Part shown: piece by piece, positions 28,820 through 38,120 of the stretch
Position numbering within the stretch: position 1 is the first letter of the stretch
Layout: every line of letters starts with the position of its first letter
Origin: Bdellovibrio sp.
GTDB lineage: Bacteria > Myxococcota > SpSt-1050
Assembly (NCBI GenBank): GCA_020725805.1
Contig: DYEF01000023.1
Location: 28,014-92,013 of the forward strand
Direction of reading: 5' to 3'
Length of the DNA stretch: 64,000 nt
Notes under the pieces: model-generated
What the model was told of the DNA's origin: nothing
The model's database searches: none
Seen by the model: the letters and a program-made list of their open reading frames with translations, nothing else
Translations under genes and position numbers: made by a program

Positions 28820-31141
28820 TTATTCTGTTGCACAGCTGTTGCTGTCGGGTACACAGAGATTTACCCCGTTTACATCCTTACAGGTGAATTTTTCGGGGCA
28901 GGCTCCCGGGACTTTCGGGTCACAGGAAGCGAGGCAGAACATATCTGCTCCGCTGTCAGGTACCTTTACACATCTGTTGGGCGGATTCGGATTGTTATAA
29001 TCCGGATTGCCGCTGTTGCAATATGCATCCTCAAAGCAGGGTACGCACAAAAGTTCGGTCATAGGAATGCATATACCCTGATACAGGGCACCAAGTCCGA
29101 GCCAGGATTCATAGCAGGCATAACCTGCCGGACAATCGGCGTTGGTCTTGCAGATGCTGGAGCATTTCCCGTTGTTGAGACAGAGGTCATTGGCGCAGGG
29201 CTTATCAATGCAGGCCTCGTGACAGACCTCGTCTGTCGAACAGGCAACGCAATCACCATTGAAGCCCGCTCCTCCCTCTGTCGGGGCAGAACAGAATGAA
29301 TAGACCTTATTTGCCTTCGTATCAAATCCGTACATCTTGCAGACTTCGCCGTTGGAGCAGTCCTTGTCTCCGTTGCACTCCTTGCCGGAACCGGAGAAAG
29401 GAATACAGAGGTTTGTCTGATTTACAGTGTCATAACCCTCTGAAAGCGGCTGAGGCATACATTTCCAGGTATAATTACCGGCCTTACCATAATCGCAGTC
29501 TGCACCGATATTGTCACAGGCGCCGGAGCAGTATCCTACTCTCAGACAGAGATTTGTCGAACAGGAGAAAGATGCCTGGCACTGCTGCCCGGGTTTGCTG
29601 GCCCCTGAATATTCCTTTGCACAGATCGAAACGGTATTGTCATCATATGTTTCGGGTCTGGAATAGTCGTCATTGTCCTCGTTGCCAAAGATAAGTTTGC
29701 AGATTTCTCCCGAGACCTTGCAGTCTGACGGCTTTTCACACTTGGTCGGCTTATCTCCCTGATAAACGGTCGGCATACAGATGCCCATATAAACCACCGT
29801 ACAGCCCGCCTGGTCGAGGCTCATTCCCACATCACGGCATACTCCCTTAAAGCCGTCGCCGTAATTGCAGGTGCAGTCCTGGTCAGTGCAGTTGACATTT
29901 GCCACACACTTGTTGTTGAGACACTTGAGACTGCAGCACTCACCGTCCACGGTACAGGTCTGGTCGACCTTCTTGCAGTTGGGATGACAGAATGAGGCAC
30001 ACTTTCCTTCGAGGCAGAAGAGAGAGCAGCAATCGTCGTCTTCGGTACAGTCCTCGCCTGCCTTCTTCCCGCCTTTTGAGAGCTCACAGGTCTCGCCGCA
30101 CTTGGTATTCAGTCCAAGGATGGACTGACCGGTTTTGTCAAGAGTAAAGCCCATCTGGCATTTCTGATTATCTGAGCAGGTATTATCACCGTAGCAGTCG
30201 GGTCTGAAACGGTTCGGGAAGCAGGATGAACAATACTTCTTCTCGACAACCACTTTGGTTTTGGTATCATAGGTCTTGAAGAGATTACAACTCATATCTC
30301 CCACACAGTCATCATCTTTTTCACACTCCTTATCGTCCTTTACATAACAGCTCTGGCAGATATTACCTCCGTGGGCGTTCGAGGAGGCACAGTATTTTTC
30401 CTGTGAGTATATACAGTCCCTGTTGTCATTGCAATAATTTACGCATCTGTCTGTCTTCACACACATAGCCGTTCCGTACTGTGCCGAACTCAGACACTCG
30501 TAGCAATTCATCCTGTAACCGCCAACAATGTTGAAGAACTCGGCACAATCAGCAGACTTTTCACACTTCTTCGAACAGACCGAACCTGACTTGTAAACAC
30601 CGTTATCATCTCTCTCTCCGACACAATAAGTCTCCCCGGCCTTGCAGGCTACGTTCCCAAGTTTGTCACAGGGCTCTCCCGCGCCTCTGTTGAGTGGAGT
30701 ACAGGCTCCTTCCGTATACATACAAACCTTCTTGGTAGAATCGAGTGAATCATATGTACAGCAGTAATTCTTCTCTCCGGCAAAGCCTGCACAGTCCGCA
30801 TCTGTTTCACAGCTCTTTGAACAATAACTGTTCTTTATCTTAGCCGTAATACCGTAGCATAATCCCGACGCACAGTTGTCATCGGATGAGCAGAGTTCAC
30901 CGTTATTTTTAAGCGGCTTCTTACAGGTCTTGCTTGTAGGGTTACATTCCAGCCCCTCACAGCAGTCCTCTGTCTTTTCACACTTCTGGTTGAGGGCTGA
31001 ACATTGCGGTCCGGTATCGCCGGTACCGGTAGTGTCCGTTGGTGCAGCATCCTTACTCCCGCCGTTCCCATCATCCGAGGAACATGCATTCAGCAATGCT
31101 ACCGAAAGAATAATTCCTAAAATCACCAAAAACTTCTTCAT
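28820..31141 (-). CDS. very cysteine-rich lipoprotein with repeated disulfide modules
   Basis: A 773-residue outer-envelope lipoprotein (lipobox LLNAC, then a Ser/Asp/Gly-rich linker). The rest consists of dozens of short modules with Cys-Cys or Cys-x3-Cys spacing, for example CEKTEDCCEGLECNPTSKTC, GELCSSDDNCASGLC and CTVDGECCSLKCLNNKC. This resembles EB-module, dickkopf or 'Myxococcus cysteine-rich' proteins. I start it at the ATG at 31141, six bases after AGGAGG; the codon before is an in-frame TTG. A disulfide-bonded surface protein is the simplest reading. Binding partners are unknown. It has its own promoter and terminator. Confidence 0.88.
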   Translation of the reverse strand: MKKFLVILGIILSVALLNACSSDDGNGGSKDAAPTDTTGTGDTGPQCSALNQKCEKTEDCCEGLECNPTSKTCKKPLKNNGELCSSDDNCASGLCYGITAKIKNSYCSKSCETDADCAGFAGEKNYCCTYDSLDSTKKVCMYTEGACTPLNRGAGEPCDKLGNVACKAGETYCVGERDDNGVYKSGSVCSKKCEKSADCAEFFNIVGGYRMNCYECLSSAQYGTAMCVKTDRCVNYCNDNRDCIYSQEKYCASSNAHGGNICQSCYVKDDKECEKDDDCVGDMSCNLFKTYDTKTKVVVEKKYCSSCFPNRFRPDCYGDNTCSDNQKCQMGFTLDKTGQSILGLNTKCGETCELSKGGKKAGEDCTEDDDCCSLFCLEGKCASFCHPNCKKVDQTCTVDGECCSLKCLNNKCVANVNCTDQDCTCNYGDGFKGVCRDVGMSLDQAGCTVVYMGICMPTVYQGDKPTKCEKPSDCKVSGEICKLIFGNEDNDDYSRPETYDDNTVSICAKEYSGASKPGQQCQASFSCSTNLCLRVGYCSGACDNIGADCDYGKAGNYTWKCMPQPLSEGYDTVNQTNLCIPFSGSGKECNGDKDCSNGEVCKMYGFDTKANKVYSFCSAPTEGGAGFNGDCVACSTDEVCHEACIDKPCANDLCLNNGKCSSICKTNADCPAGYACYESWLGLGALYQGICIPMTELLCVPCFEDAYCNSGNPDYNNPNPPNRCVKVPDSGADMFCLASCDPKVPGACPEKFTCKDVNGVNLCVPDSNSCATE

Positions 31142-31188
31142 CAAAAACCTCCTAAAAATGGTTTATTTACGCCAAAAACAGCCCGCCT

Positions 31189-31489: not shown

Positions 31490-34147
31490 ATGCTTATTCA
31501 CGAACCTTACAAGATCAAATCAGTCAGAAATATTCCATTCACCACCTATAATGAGAGAAAGAGAATCCTGAGAGAGCATTTTTACAATACAACGTTAATT
31601 CCCGCCGATAAAGTAACATTCGATATGGCCACACAGGGAACATCTGCAATGTCTCAGGAACAGGTAGCCGCACTCTTTGTTGGAGATGAGGCCTATGCAG
31701 GGGCTGTAAATTTCTATCATCTGGAGAATGCAGTAAGAGATGTCTTCGGACTTAAAAACATATGCCCCACACACAACAGATTCGGTAACATTAAGCTGCT
31801 GACCTCGATCATGGTCAAAAGCGGAAAATCGGCCTTCTCGAACATAAGACAGCCAAAGGAAATAGTCGAATACTACAAGGGCCGCTTCGTCCAGATATCC
31901 TCAAGGGAGGAGAACGGTTTCTCTATACTGGATGTGTCAGAGGTCAAAAAAGCAAAGAAAGACGAGACCGCCTACATATTCATAGACCTGAGAAGCGATG
32001 AGGGGAGACCGGTCTGCCCGTCCTGCCTTAATGAGATTGCACATTTTTCGAAAGACTCGGGTATCCCGCTGATTATCGACTGTTCGAACATCGTCCTCTG
32101 GGCAAACAGGGTAAAGAATGTCGCAAAAGACTATTCATCGAAGAGAATCTCCGAAATTATTAAGGAGGTCTCCGCTCTCGCAACAACTGTGGCATTCGAC
32201 GCCGGACAGGATGCGATGAGTAATGTCGGAGGATTTCTTGCAACAAACGACCCGAAGCATCACGAGGCCCATCAGAACGAAGTCGTAATATATGAGGGGC
32301 TGCACACCTACGGAGGTATGGCCGGAAGGACAATGGAAGTAGTCGCTGTCGGGCTGAGGGATATGACCGATGAAAACAATGCAGTTTGGTACCAGCAGCA
32401 GATCGACCTCTTATCGGAAATTCTCTCCAAAGAGAGAGTACCTCACTATAAGGGACTGGACGGCGTATACCTCTGTGCGGACAAGTTCCTCAGCCACCTC
32501 AGGGAGAACAGGACCCACACACTGGCAACTGCAATCTATCTGAAATCCGGGGTAAGGGCATATCTTGGAGGCAGATATATACCGTCCGAGATTCTGCCCG
32601 TTCAGATTCCGAGAAGGGCACTTTTAAACAGACAGGTCGTTCAGATCGCAGAGGCAATATGCGAACTCTTCAGAGAGGCCGCTCAGATACCGGCGCTCGT
32701 TCTGACCAACAGACCCGAATATCACAACGAGGCTGTATTCGACTGGCTCATACCGGTTATCAGGCCTTACGAATTCGAATGCGAACCTTATACGGTCCAC
32801 GCAATCGAGAAGATTGCAATGAAGAGCGTGGAGGAGAGACGAAAGGCGGCAGAAGAGGCAGGTTACAATACATTTCTCCTTAAAATGGAGGATGTGACAA
32901 TCGACCTGCTCACAGACTCCGGAACGGCAGCTATGAGTGTAGAGCAGTGGAAGGCTTACCTCGGCGCCATAGAGACACCAAACACATCTGATGCCTATAT
33001 CGACCTTGTCAGAACCGCACAGAAGGTATACGGTTACAAACATATTATCCTTACCCATCAGGGCAGAGCAGCAGAACACATAATGTCCCAGATGTTTATC
33101 AGACCGGGTGACTACGTGCCCGGCAATATGTACTTCACGACCACCAAGCAGCATCAGGAGATGGCAGGCGGAATTTTCGTGGACGTAATCGTCGATGAGG
33201 CAAACGATACAGACTCAGACTTCGAATGGAAGGGAAATGTGGACCTGAAAAAACTCTCGGACCTCTACGATAAGGCAAAATCCGAAGGCAAAAAGCTTGC
33301 ATACATCTCATTCGAATTCAATGTAAATCTTGCAGGCGGACAACCGGTCTCGATGGACAATATGAAGGAGGTCTATGAATTCTGCAAACCGAGAGGAATC
33401 CCGGTATTCTTCGATGCGACGAGATGCTCTGAAAATGCGATATTCATCAAGCAGAGGGACCCGAGATACAGGGATGCAAGCATCGGGGATATACTTCTCG
33501 AGATGTTCAGTTACGGCGACGGTGCCACCATTTCAGCCAAAAAGGATATGCTCACAAACCTCTCGGGAGCACTCCTCTTCAGGGATAACGAAGAGTGGTA
33601 CAGAGAGGCTCTCAGGATGCTGCAGATATTCGAAGGAGGTCATTCAAGCGGCGGTACATCTGCAGGAGATATGGCAACACACGCACAGGGATTGAGAGAG
33701 ATGGTCGATGAAAGATATCTCAAGGCAAGGGTCGAACAGGCGAGATATCTGGGCAAACTCCTGATCGATGCGGGTATTCCGATTGTAATGCCTCCGGGAG
33801 GCCATGCGGTATTCCTCGATGCGAAGAAATTCCTCCCTCACCTCGACCAGGACCAGTTTCCGGCACAGACGCTCGCGGCACACATATTTATCGAGACCGG
33901 AGTCCGGGCAATGGAGAGGGGAAACGTAAGCAAGGGAAGGGACCCGAAGACGGGAAAGAATTACAGACCCAAACTCGAGCTCGTTAGACTTACAATACCC
34001 AGAAGGGTATACTCACTCGACCATATGAAGGCTGTTGCAGAGGGAATCATCAGACTATACAGGAAGCGCGATTCCATAAGGGGACTCGAATTTACATACG
34101 AACCGAAGGCACTCAGATTCTTCCAGTCCAGATTCAGACTCATTTGA
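31490..34147 (+). CDS. tandem fusion of two tyrosine phenol-lyase/tryptophanase domains with complementary active-site residues
   Basis: 885 residues; usual family length is about 460. Both halves align along the beta-eliminating lyase fold, starting at EPYKIKSV (5) and EPYTVHAI (432). The C-terminal half keeps the PLP lysine K685 (SAKKD), DATRC (R645), NLAGGQPVS, THQGR (R526), YFTTT, MERG (R810, equivalent to Arg381 that gives tyrosine phenol-lyase specificity), R833 and LRFF. It has lost the DEAYAG motif (P497 in place of Tyr71) and the YGG after EGM. The N-terminal half keeps GDEAYAG (Y69) and EGLHTYGG but has Q240 for the PLP lysine, N200 for R217, and no Arg381 or Arg404 equivalent. Likely reaction: tyrosine (or a related amino acid) to phenol, pyruvate and ammonia. 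It is monocistronic with its own promoter. Equivalences use the Citrobacter enzyme from memory. Confidence 0.9.
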   Translation: MLIHEPYKIKSVRNIPFTTYNERKRILREHFYNTTLIPADKVTFDMATQGTSAMSQEQVAALFVGDEAYAGAVNFYHLENAVRDVFGLKNICPTHNRFGNIKLLTSIMVKSGKSAFSNIRQPKEIVEYYKGRFVQISSREENGFSILDVSEVKKAKKDETAYIFIDLRSDEGRPVCPSCLNEIAHFSKDSGIPLIIDCSNIVLWANRVKNVAKDYSSKRISEIIKEVSALATTVAFDAGQDAMSNVGGFLATNDPKHHEAHQNEVVIYEGLHTYGGMAGRTMEVVAVGLRDMTDENNAVWYQQQIDLLSEILSKERVPHYKGLDGVYLCADKFLSHLRENRTHTLATAIYLKSGVRAYLGGRYIPSEILPVQIPRRALLNRQVVQIAEAICELFREAAQIPALVLTNRPEYHNEAVFDWLIPVIRPYEFECEPYTVHAIEKIAMKSVEERRKAAEEAGYNTFLLKMEDVTIDLLTDSGTAAMSVEQWKAYLGAIETPNTSDAYIDLVRTAQKVYGYKHIILTHQGRAAEHIMSQMFIRPGDYVPGNMYFTTTKQHQEMAGGIFVDVIVDEANDTDSDFEWKGNVDLKKLSDLYDKAKSEGKKLAYISFEFNVNLAGGQPVSMDNMKEVYEFCKPRGIPVFFDATRCSENAIFIKQRDPRYRDASIGDILLEMFSYGDGATISAKKDMLTNLSGALLFRDNEEWYREALRMLQIFEGGHSSGGTSAGDMATHAQGLREMVDERYLKARVEQARYLGKLLIDAGIPIVMPPGGHAVFLDAKKFLPHLDQDQFPAQTLAAHIFIETGVRAMERGNVSKGRDPKTGKNYRPKLELVRLTIPRRVYSLDHMKAVAEGIIRLYRKRDSIRGLEFTYEPKALRFFQSRFRLI

Positions 34148-34311: not shown

Positions 34312-34395
34312 TAGCCCGTTAACTTTATATTTTTTTGAGTAATGATGAGCATTTTTCTGAATTTAATTAATAATTTTATTACGAAGGGAGCAGAG

Positions 34396-35994
34396 ATGAA
34401 CAAGGCAAGATTTTTTGTGCTTTTTCTGGGAATTTTTATCTTTACAGGACTTCTTGTCAGCTGTGTAAGTGACAAGGAGGCAAGCAAATTCGTGGAGAAA
34501 CTCGAGAAGAAACCGGGAGAAGGGAAACCTGCGTCATACTGGGTTAAAAAGCTGACCGATGTTCAGCTCAAACCGGATGCCGTAAAAGCACTTATGGAAC
34601 TCAAGGACAAGAGCGTTATTCCGCAGCTCACGGAACTCTTCAAAAAGGACAGGTCGCTCAGAGCCGACATTGCCGAGATTCTCGGTATGCTCGGAGAGAA
34701 GAGCACAGCCCCTGTACTTCTTGAAGGACTGGTCTTCGAGGTTTCCAACAATATTCAGGAACAGAGAGAGAATGACAGAATCAACGAGAAGATTCTCGGC
34801 GCCCTCGCTGCTATGCAGGAAGAGTCGGCAAAGCCGGCCGTAATCAAGCTTCTCTCATCCACCTCTGCACCGGTTCTCGCCGCCGCAGTCAGGGCCGAAA
34901 AGGTCTTCAAGGATAAAAACGCCGTCGACGCCCTCATTGCAATTATCAGGAATGACAATCTTTCAAAGGCTATAAGGGCCGATGCAATTTATGTTCTGGG
35001 TGAAATCGGCGACCCGAAGGCCGTTCCTGCACTCGTCAGGGCAATGTACATCGAGAGACAGGGTACCGTTTACCCTGAGGCAAACGAGGCACTTCAGAAA
35101 ATCGGCAAAGCCGCCGTTCCTGAACTCGTAAAGACATTTCTGGGTAAGAATGAAGAGGTCAGGCAGCTCGCCGAAAAATCCAACTTCGTCGTAGGTGCAA
35201 TCGAGGGGAAGGCCGCAGAGACACTCGGCGACATCTGTGACCTCTCTGCAGAGGACGCACTCTTAAAGATGGTTAAATCGGACGAGGACAATCCCATTGC
35301 CAAATCCAAGGCCGCCTTTGCGCTCGGAAGGATGCAGTCCAAGAAGGCAGCACCCGTTATGGCAAAACTTGCAGAAGATGAAGAAGACCCCTCGGTAAGG
35401 GCCCATTACCTCCTTGCAATAAATCTCATCGGTGATACTTCCGTTATACCGTCACTCGTGAAGGGTGCAAAAAAGCCGGACCTCGACAAGTATAAGAAGG
35501 AAGGGGCAACACAGCAGGAACTCGACATCCTCAGAAAAGGAAGGGAAGAGGTAGTAAAGACAATAGCAAGGCTCGCCACCGACAAGGATGCAGCTCATTA
35601 CGATAAGGTTATGAAGGAAGAGAAGAATCCGGAAATCAGCAAGGTAATAAAGGAATATTCCGTGATGATCGATGTCGCAAAGGAATGCAAGGGTGATTTT
35701 GCCTGTTACAAAGGAAAGCTCTCCGACACAAACAAGGTTGTAAGAGAGAAGGCCGCATATATGATCGGAAGAATAGATTCTGAAGAGGCGGTCAATACCC
35801 TGATAGACCTGCTCGGGACAGAGAAGGACAACGATGTAAAATTTGCTGTCCTGCAGGGCCTGTTCAATTTCTCGGGCAAATATTACAAGACAATGCTGCC
35901 GAAGATCGAGGCAAAGGTAGCTGAGCTCAAGGATGATATTCTCAAAAACGACCTGAACAGACTTCTGCTCAGATTAAAAAGCTTGAACAGATAG
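34396..35994 (+). CDS. HEAT-repeat lipoprotein
   Basis: A 532-residue lipoprotein. Start set at 34396, where GGGAG precedes ATG and the signal ends in LLVSC; an in-frame ATG at 34342 is upstream without a ribosome site. The mature protein is a run of HEAT/PBS-lyase-like helical repeats with recurring D-x-x-A-V-P-x-L and A-x-x-L-G patterns (GDPKAVPALVRAM, AVDALIAII, AAYMIGRIDSEEAVNTLIDLL). These form alpha-solenoids for protein binding. A role as a periplasmic or outer-membrane scaffold is likely; partner unknown. It heads a row of plus-strand envelope genes around panD. Confidence 0.85.
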   Translation: MNKARFFVLFLGIFIFTGLLVSCVSDKEASKFVEKLEKKPGEGKPASYWVKKLTDVQLKPDAVKALMELKDKSVIPQLTELFKKDRSLRADIAEILGMLGEKSTAPVLLEGLVFEVSNNIQEQRENDRINEKILGALAAMQEESAKPAVIKLLSSTSAPVLAAAVRAEKVFKDKNAVDALIAIIRNDNLSKAIRADAIYVLGEIGDPKAVPALVRAMYIERQGTVYPEANEALQKIGKAAVPELVKTFLGKNEEVRQLAEKSNFVVGAIEGKAAETLGDICDLSAEDALLKMVKSDEDNPIAKSKAAFALGRMQSKKAAPVMAKLAEDEEDPSVRAHYLLAINLIGDTSVIPSLVKGAKKPDLDKYKKEGATQQELDILRKGREEVVKTIARLATDKDAAHYDKVMKEEKNPEISKVIKEYSVMIDVAKECKGDFACYKGKLSDTNKVVREKAAYMIGRIDSEEAVNTLIDLLGTEKDNDVKFAVLQGLFNFSGKYYKTMLPKIEAKVAELKDDILKNDLNRLLLRLKSLNR

Positions 35995-36452: not shown

Positions 36453-36590
36453 TCTCACAATCAGGTGATTACGGGACTCGGTATTCCGTGGTTTTTGCCC
36501 GGTATTATTTTTATTATTATTATTTCAAATTGTTGACTCTTTTACTCCTTTATGATAACAGAACCATAATTTCCTTATAGGAGTTGAGTG

Positions 36591-38120
36591 ATGAGAAAGA
36601 AAAGTGTCCTTTATGCAGCATTGTTCCTGTTATTATTATCATCTGCTGTCTCTGGAGCCCAGTTCAACAAGGTTCTGATATTTCCATATCAGCCGGTATA
36701 TCAGTCAGTGACTCCCGAGGTGGCAAATCAGTTTACGGAACTTCTGACAAACGAGATGAAGAATGCAGACTCCCTGCAGGCAGTCGAGGGCCCGAAACTG
36801 GTTACCAAGAAAAAGGCCGGACTATCCGAACCGAACATAGACAGGGACGCCATAGCAAAGGGTACCGAGAAGGCAAAGGTCGGAATCGAGGAGATAAAAA
36901 ACCAGGAATTCGAGAAAGCAATAAAACCTCTCAAGGACGCGATTCAGATTCTCGAAAAGAATCTTCTCTACCTTGAAGACACCTCGGTCCTTACAGACGC
37001 ATATCTGGCACTCTCCGTTGCATACTTCGGGACAGGTATGGAGGACGAGGGAGAGACCTATATAAGAAAATCCCTCAGACTGGACCCTTACAAGGAGATC
37101 GATACAACACAGTATCCCCCGCTCTATCTCAGAATCTATGACGGAATCCGTAAACAGACCTATCAGTTGCCAAGGGGAATGATAAGGGTGACATCGAATC
37201 CTTCGGGTGCCGTGATTTTTGTAGACGGAAAACAGGTTGGAACTACTCCGGCATTGCTGAAGGAGGCAATAAAAGGCGAACATTATATAAGAGTCGAGCG
37301 GTCCGGAGAGGTCCCGTATTACAAGAAAGTAAATGTTCTTCCCAATCAGACCGTAGAGATAAATGTGGATTTTTCGGGAGAGGAGGAAGGCGGGGCAGGA
37401 CCGGAATATACAGCTGCAAATCAGCTCAAGAACAACCGTATTGACTCTTCCACCAGAGAGGCACTCGTTCAGGTAGCCAACAAACAACAGGCGGATTATG
37501 TACTCTTTGGCGGCATCATAAAGGTCGAGAACAACTATCAGATCAACTCCTTCTTTATGAAGGTCAAGACCACCGAAGTCGTCCAGACTATGACTCTGAC
37601 GATAGACGTCGATATGCTTGGAGCATCTATCGAGATCTACAAACTCGTAGAGGAACTAACAAAGAAGATAGAGAGTTTCCCCGAGAGTATAAAACAGAGC
37701 GTAATTCTCCTCTATCCCGGAATTATGAAGAAGACAGAGAAGATTCAGGAGATTGTCATCGGTCCGGTGGGAGCACCCCAGCCACTCTACACAGGTCCTG
37801 CAAAGGAGGAGGAACCTCAGCCTCCGGTCGTAAAGGAAGAGCCCAAGAAGGAAGAGAAAAAGACGGCTCAAGTCGTTCCTGATGTCAAAAAGACCGGAGA
37901 CAGCGGCGGCGGAATAGATATAGGCAAGGGGAGAACCCTCAAACAGAAGGGTCAGATAGACTCCTCTGTCGTCATCGTCGAGAAACCTGTAAAATGGTAT
38001 GAGAGCCCGTGGTTCTGGACAGCTGTAGGTGTTGCAGTGGTAGGAGCAGGAGTCGGGACATATCTGTATATTTCCAGCATCGAGCCGGACAGAGGCAGAA
38101 TTTCCGTTACACTCCCATAA
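36591..38120 (+). CDS. exported TPR/PEGA-domain protein with C-terminal membrane segment
   Basis: A 509-residue envelope protein. The ATG at 36591 is seven bases after AGGAG; a GTG codon just before it is in frame. The signal peptide ends SAVSGA. The N-terminal part looks like a TPR-containing domain (KAIKPLKDAIQILEKNLLYL, then LALSVAYFGTGMEDEGETYI). A PEGA domain follows at about 195-265 (IRVTSNPSGAVIFVDGKQVG), then a CsgG-like region, a Pro/Lys/Glu-rich linker and a membrane segment (WFWTAVGVAVVGAGVGTYLY). This is a common design in myxobacteria-like genomes. Function unknown; probably a cell-surface or periplasmic adaptor. Confidence 0.82.
   Translation: MRKKSVLYAALFLLLLSSAVSGAQFNKVLIFPYQPVYQSVTPEVANQFTELLTNEMKNADSLQAVEGPKLVTKKKAGLSEPNIDRDAIAKGTEKAKVGIEEIKNQEFEKAIKPLKDAIQILEKNLLYLEDTSVLTDAYLALSVAYFGTGMEDEGETYIRKSLRLDPYKEIDTTQYPPLYLRIYDGIRKQTYQLPRGMIRVTSNPSGAVIFVDGKQVGTTPALLKEAIKGEHYIRVERSGEVPYYKKVNVLPNQTVEINVDFSGEEEGGAGPEYTAANQLKNNRIDSSTREALVQVANKQQADYVLFGGIIKVENNYQINSFFMKVKTTEVVQTMTLTIDVDMLGASIEIYKLVEELTKKIESFPESIKQSVILLYPGIMKKTEKIQEIVIGPVGAPQPLYTGPAKEEEPQPPVVKEEPKKEEKKTAQVVPDVKKTGDSGGGIDIGKGRTLKQKGQIDSSVVIVEKPVKWYESPWFWTAVGVAVVGAGVGTYLYISSIEPDRGRISVTLP

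Follow-up and report, generated by a model that had tools for sequence, protein, structure and literature searches.

A single open reading frame with an ATG start at position 31490 of the window (the whole 64,000-nucleotide stretch of DNA that was analysed) encodes an 885-residue chain made up of two halves of the tyrosine phenol-lyase (TPL)/tryptophanase fold. A purine-rich, Shine-Dalgarno-like sequence, AGGAAAGGAA, lies directly 5' of the ATG and represents a good ribosome-binding site, and the antisense frame examined opposite the gene is riddled with stops. The features of the locus are as follows.

31490..34147, + strand: fused TPL-like gene (885 aa), a single open reading frame with an ATG start
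31490..32758, + strand: N half (residues 1-423), a TPL fold that lacks the PLP lysine and is the putative trans-residue donor
31682..31702, + strand: GDEAYAG (residues 65-71; E67 = TPL E69, Y69 = TPL Y71), intact in the N half
32207..32209, + strand: codon of Q240 at the place of the PLP lysine K257, from the position check and homologue alignment
32294..32317, + strand: EGLHTYGG (residues 269-276; L271 = M288, Y274 = TPL Y291 = E. coli TnaA Tyr307), 43/43 N halves
32759..34144, + strand: C half (residues 424-885), the PLP-binding TPL half
32978..32980, + strand: codon of P497 at the place of the catalytic Y71, Tyr in 0/43 C halves
33542..33544, + strand: codon of K685, the PLP lysine, Lys in 43/43 C halves
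33632..33655, + strand: EGGHSSGG (residues 715-722), the decayed EGMPSYGG/EGLHTYGG segment, Y291 position never Tyr in C halves
33917..33919, + strand: codon of R810 (TPL R381, tyrosine-type specificity), Arg in 41/41 C halves reaching the position

On the minus strand, window positions 28820-31144 encode a predicted lipoprotein of 774 residues that is very rich in Cys, contains repeated clusters of this residue and matches no Pfam family. A HEAT-repeat protein (34342-35994, +) and a PEGA-domain protein (36588-38120, +) are encoded 3' of the fused gene, with no sign of an operon shared between it and these two downstream genes, and simple ORF picking around 26 fused loci revealed no conserved neighbour genes. 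About 37 kb upstream on the same contig, outside the window, lies a single-chain tryptophanase-type homologue (L002; G000:C17:22352-23704), for which PRK13238.1 is the best NCBIfam model and which groups with tryptophanases in the tree.

Two lyase halves with divided active-site residues

Two stretches of the protein match Pfam Beta_elim_lyase. The C half matched solved TPLs with an E value of ~1e-157, is 53-54% identical to the Citrobacter freundii enzyme (2ez1), and was superposed on TPL by VIA-align with a Z score of 51 and an rmsd of 1.5 Å over 437 residues (53% identity), while the N half alone, at about 30% identity to TPL, matched TIGR02618 with an E value of 2e-68. Against that model the C half scored 613 bits, the N half 231 bits and the two halves summed 836 bits; since the equivalog cut-off is 720.7 bits, it is passed only by the sum and by neither half alone, and the NCBI model would call this gene a TPL solely through the addition of two half scores. 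Foldseek and VIA-align matches to PDB chains were essentially single-half, so that inter-half packing was not probed by either method, and the glycine decarboxylase P-protein was not among the matches inspected.

Positions were checked by alignment against C. freundii TPL and E. coli tryptophanase (TnaA), and TPL numbering is used for the equivalents. At TPL K257, R217, R100, R381, R404 and F448-F449 the C half carries K685, R645, R526, R810, R833 and F877-F878, whereas the N half has Q240, N200, F98, G360, P370 and H412-N413. The reverse applies to TPL Y71 and Y291, which correspond to Y69 and Y274 in the N half and to P497 and S720 in the C half; TPL E69 is matched in both (E67 and E495). 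The C half meets the TPL residue set for PLP and substrate (K257, R217, R404, R100, N185 and D214) and the N half does not, and the catalytic Y71, unlike in TPL, is found only on the half that lacks the PLP lysine. The first-pass annotation, made without homologues, had proposed two lyase-fold domains in one 885-residue chain, which held on the Pfam, superposition and profile matches, and every residue that it had assigned in the two halves, including those of GDEAYAG, EGLHTYGG and EGGHSSGG, was confirmed by the alignment to TPL and TnaA.

Complementary loss throughout a rare fused family

Counting the window's own protein, a contig scan yielded 29 fused proteins of full or near-full length, plus three that are partial, from MAGs labelled Deltaproteobacteria, Bacteroidota, Gemmatimonadota, Acidobacteria, Planctomycetota and others. 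Whole-genome searches of the window's phylum and four others brought the total to 43 distinct full or near-full fused proteins, spread over at least five phyla and found in both MAGs and genomes, so that the architecture which the first-pass annotation had suggested seeking elsewhere does exist. The fused genes are rare, occurring in about 3-8 of the 190-300 genomes sampled in each phylum. Most of the 43 frames are intact and they come from independent assemblies, closed MAG chromosomes among them; a few are irregular (L029) or cut off at contig ends. In the genomes searched, no TPL-scoring single gene was seen alongside a fused gene, and at most one tryptophanase-scoring single homologue accompanied it; free-standing N-half genes were absent from the collected loci.

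The division of residues holds in all 43 homologues, down to about 45% identity. Y71, E69, L288 and Y291 are each present in 43/43 N halves, and GDEAYAG is invariant there except for the A at TPL position 70 (95%). At the K257 position the N halves have Q (34), E (4), G (2), R (2) or H (1), and Arg occupies the R404 position in none of the 43. In the C halves K257, R100 and R217 are each retained in 43/43 and R381 in all 41 that are long enough to include it, yet the Y71 position is never Tyr (P in 23, A in 13, S in 3, L in 2, T and N in one each) and neither is the Y291 position (0/43). No homologue among the 43 has an N half with the PLP lysine, a case that would have refuted the first reading. 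Single-chain relatives retain K257, Y71, Y291 and the other listed residues, aside from apparent exceptions at these three positions, which are consistent with L030 and L031 being contig-edge pieces of fused genes and L125 a distant relative. Divergent single-chain relatives L122-L124 carry R217L, K256R and H343L with Y71, K257 and R381 intact, and may possibly have another substrate specificity.

An unbiased scan was made of the 96 columns that are at least 98% conserved in single-chain relatives. Both halves kept 44 of these, the C half alone 39 and the N half alone 13, and not one was lost by both, the chance expectation being 5.3 (Fisher p 7e-4). The contrast was weaker with a stricter 80% threshold for a column to count as kept (p 0.03) and was not significant once less conserved columns were admitted. 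Columns kept only by the N half fall mainly at TPL 67-73 and 288-300, together with arm residues 6-11. The complementary split in the 43 homologues is far beyond chance.

N halves diverge faster than C halves: between the window's protein and homologue L003 the C halves are 91% and the N halves 77% identical. This pair was saturated at silent sites and other pairs were therefore used for dN/dS, which was about 0.11-0.25 for N halves and about 0.04-0.16 for C halves. Certain features, at S216, W317 and G344 (TPL numbering), are conserved specifically among the N halves. Purifying selection acts on both halves, and the N half is therefore not debris.

Predicted arrangement of the two halves

AF2 with a fused alignment gave a model of the full-length 885 residues with a mean pLDDT of 81 and a pTM of 0.75. 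By our own estimate a pTM of roughly 0.5 is expected for two unconnected domains, which suggests that some inter-half arrangement is predicted. The loop carrying Y69 was placed without confidence (pLDDT < 50 at residues 68-71). The full-length model contains short strands at residues 11-14 and 434-438, of which the latter was gone when the C half was folded alone; strand 434-438 therefore probably pairs with the N half, although this rests on the model and the strand partners were not reported. Both strands match in position residues 12-17 of TnaA, which form an inter-subunit sheet of the non-catalytic interface (PMC2770544). Prediction of the monomer structure, proposed in the first-pass annotation as a check, has thus yielded a fairly defined arrangement with a low-confidence Y69 loop and one feature hinting at the arm pairing of the non-catalytic interface.

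Origin of the fusion and possible stages of decay

In the tree of the two halves, likewise proposed as a check, C halves formed one group inside the TPL side (support 98/96) and N halves formed another (support 100/97), which falls outside TPL and tryptophanase on long branches. Holding the N halves of lineage II together with the C halves was not rejected (p-AU 0.079), which leaves tandem duplication versus fusion of two paralogues undecided; the earlier claim of gene duplication and fusion is thus only partly upheld. The L288/H289 letters of EGLHTYGG are those of TPL and not of tryptophanase, and we infer from these letters that a TPL origin of the N half is favoured. Single-chain TPL and tryptophanase genes are frequently adjacent, in tandem or divergent, in Bacteroidota and Gemmatimonadota (L150, L152, L153, L161; G308, G235, G327), and such pairs are conceivable raw material for a fusion.

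Lineage II (L045-L048, with longer copies L128-L131), from another family of the window's phylum, comprises proteins of about 920-930 residues and is the closest sister of the main group. It is less decayed: R100 and R217 persist in its N half alongside K257E, while its C half, with Y71P or Y71A in the motif GDESPAG, GDESAAG or GDEAAAG, has chiefly lost the tyrosine. In the deep-branching lineage III (L143 and L144, Bacteroidota), the N-half substitution is K257G and the C-half one Y71L. One ancient fusion followed by drift is the simplest account, and the halves of lineage II may represent stages of decay. The differing replacements at the same positions between lineages leave room for repeated silencing, after the fusion, of the same half in the same direction.

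A probable composite active site shared by the two halves

In E. coli TnaA, Tyr74 and Tyr307 reach across to the neighbouring subunit, where they bond the PLP phosphate (PMC2770544), and in tryptophan indole-lyase (TIL) of Proteus vulgaris the proton donor Tyr-72 is supplied by the opposite chain of the catalytic dimer (PMC11301627). Tyr74 and Tyr307 align with TPL Y71 and Y291, the two positions at which all N halves, and none of the C halves, carry Tyr. Because the residues kept only by the N half include both tyrosines that cross the catalytic interface in crystal structures of relatives, we infer a shared active site. TPL E69 is known as a ligand of the monovalent cation (K+), and Met288 of TPL also acts in trans. 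The first-pass annotation had invoked trans roles for Tyr71 and Met288; the former is borne out by the papers on TnaA Tyr74 and TIL Tyr-72.

We consider it very likely that one chain forms one composite tyrosine-type site to which the N half donates the trans residues. Sequence, conservation, complementarity and selection are shown; activity, substrate, N:C packing and oligomeric state are inferred, in the absence of data on activity, PLP stoichiometry or structure. The C half would bind PLP on K685 and hold the substrate-binding residues R526, N613, D642, R645, R810, R833 and F877/F878. The N half, unable to form the aldimine, would complement it across the catalytic interface, with Y69 as proton donor to the leaving group, Y274 bound to the PLP phosphate and E67 as monovalent-cation ligand, the last role being assigned by analogy with TPL E69. 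Each fused chain would then have one composite site in place of the two of a TPL dimer, and two such chains probably associate, as we infer, to give a two-site pseudo-tetramer. The earlier proposal of complementary loss, with the N half as a non-catalytic trans donor and one site per chain, is supported by the 43/43 homologues, the N-only set and selection, but closure within the chain has not been shown.

At the T124, M379, R381 and F448 positions the C halves are TPL-type, and the tryptophanase-type residues at TPL 381 (I/V), 124 (D) and 448 (H) are absent, the C half having R, T and F. Cleavage of L-tyrosine to phenol, pyruvate and ammonia, or the reverse, is therefore the likeliest reaction, which is inferred from residues without enzymology. 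Y71 is dispensable for some substrates of the TPL/tryptophanase family (PMC3870968), so that loss of the tyrosine from the C half could in principle accompany another substrate.

The sequence complementarity fits two layouts, with the catalytic N:C pair formed either within a chain or between two chains. In the cross-chain layout the halves of one chain would pair through the non-catalytic, arm-exchange interface, and each site would consist of a C half and the N half of the partner chain. This is a sub-variant of the composite site, with the same chemistry, and the two are not exclusive. It is favoured by the match of strands 11-14 and 434-438 to the arm strands of TnaA (PMC2770544), but this evidence is indirect, as the partners are unreported and the alignments behind the two models differed, and some rows of the VIA-align output (TPL position 14 occupied by model residue 64) may instead reflect a C half faced by the N half's GDEAYAG side. 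On balance we lean slightly away from it. Alternatively, the C half could work alone as a lyase of altered chemistry, with the N half as a pseudoenzyme of structural or regulatory function outside the active site. The higher identity of the C half to L003 and the N halves' own conserved S216, W317 and G344 speak for this view. Against it, the very residues that reach into the partner's site in related enzymes are among those invariant in the N halves, and every strictly conserved position survives in at least one half; we regard it as unlikely. That the gene is a non-functional product of a decaying duplication or of chimeric assembly can be all but excluded: the faster divergence of N halves and the few truncated or irregular homologues (L029) point that way, but most of the 43 fused frames are intact in independent assemblies, including closed MAG chromosomes, and dN/dS is far below 1 in both halves.

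The composite-site reading makes the family a natural experiment in which a symmetric two-site enzyme became a one-site chain. The trans residues have already been mapped by crystallography, and each predicted dependency (Y69, Y274, E67) is thus testable by single mutation. The family also adds a further fold-type-I case, with surviving less-decayed relatives, for studying the rise of obligate pseudo-heterodimers.

Comparison with known systems

No report of a fused TPL or tryptophanase was found in the open-access literature searched (subscription papers were outside its scope). The first-pass annotation knew of no described case; this held in part, for TPL within that literature, as the glycine decarboxylase P-protein and serine palmitoyltransferase provide precedents. 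TPL itself (EC 4.1.99.2; C. freundii 2ez1, TIGR02618) shares with the C half all cis active-site residues, including R381, T124, M379 and F448, and with the N half the trans residues, but it consists of identical chains of about 456 residues with two composite sites per dimer, whereas the fused protein has two unequal halves in one chain, each without part of the site. Tryptophanase (TnaA) has the same fold and the same trans tyrosines (Tyr74 and Tyr307) but differs in its Trp-type I396, D137 and H463, which are absent from the fused protein. In serine palmitoyltransferase (LCB1/LCB2) one subunit has no PLP lysine and each heterodimer is proposed to have just one active site (PMC3794620); the PLP lysine missing from one partner and the single site per pair resemble our case, although the two subunits are normally separate and belong to a different fold-type-I subgroup.

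The glycine decarboxylase P-protein (GcvP/GLDC) is a fold-type-I PLP enzyme of more than 1000 residues in one chain, the N half of which has Gln at the place of the PLP lysine (PMC7259800), as does the fused TPL at Q240. The GcvP-like pattern of two fold-type-I halves per chain with the PLP lysine in only one is satisfied, and residue complementarity, on sequence alone, points to the second GcvP-like trait, a site formed where the two halves meet. GcvP/GLDC has another reaction and subfamily, and some prokaryotes encode it as distinct alpha and beta genes; for the fused TPL no split N-half gene was seen. The design is thus known in other fold-type-I PLP enzymes and is new for TPL as far as the open-access literature searched shows. 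In a bolder reading, which we consider likely, TPL independently evolved a fused half-site pseudo-heterodimer of the glycine decarboxylase type, and living lineages preserve the stages of its decay: one in which each half still has most of the site but the key tyrosine/lysine pair is already divided, and the main lineage, in which the division is far advanced.
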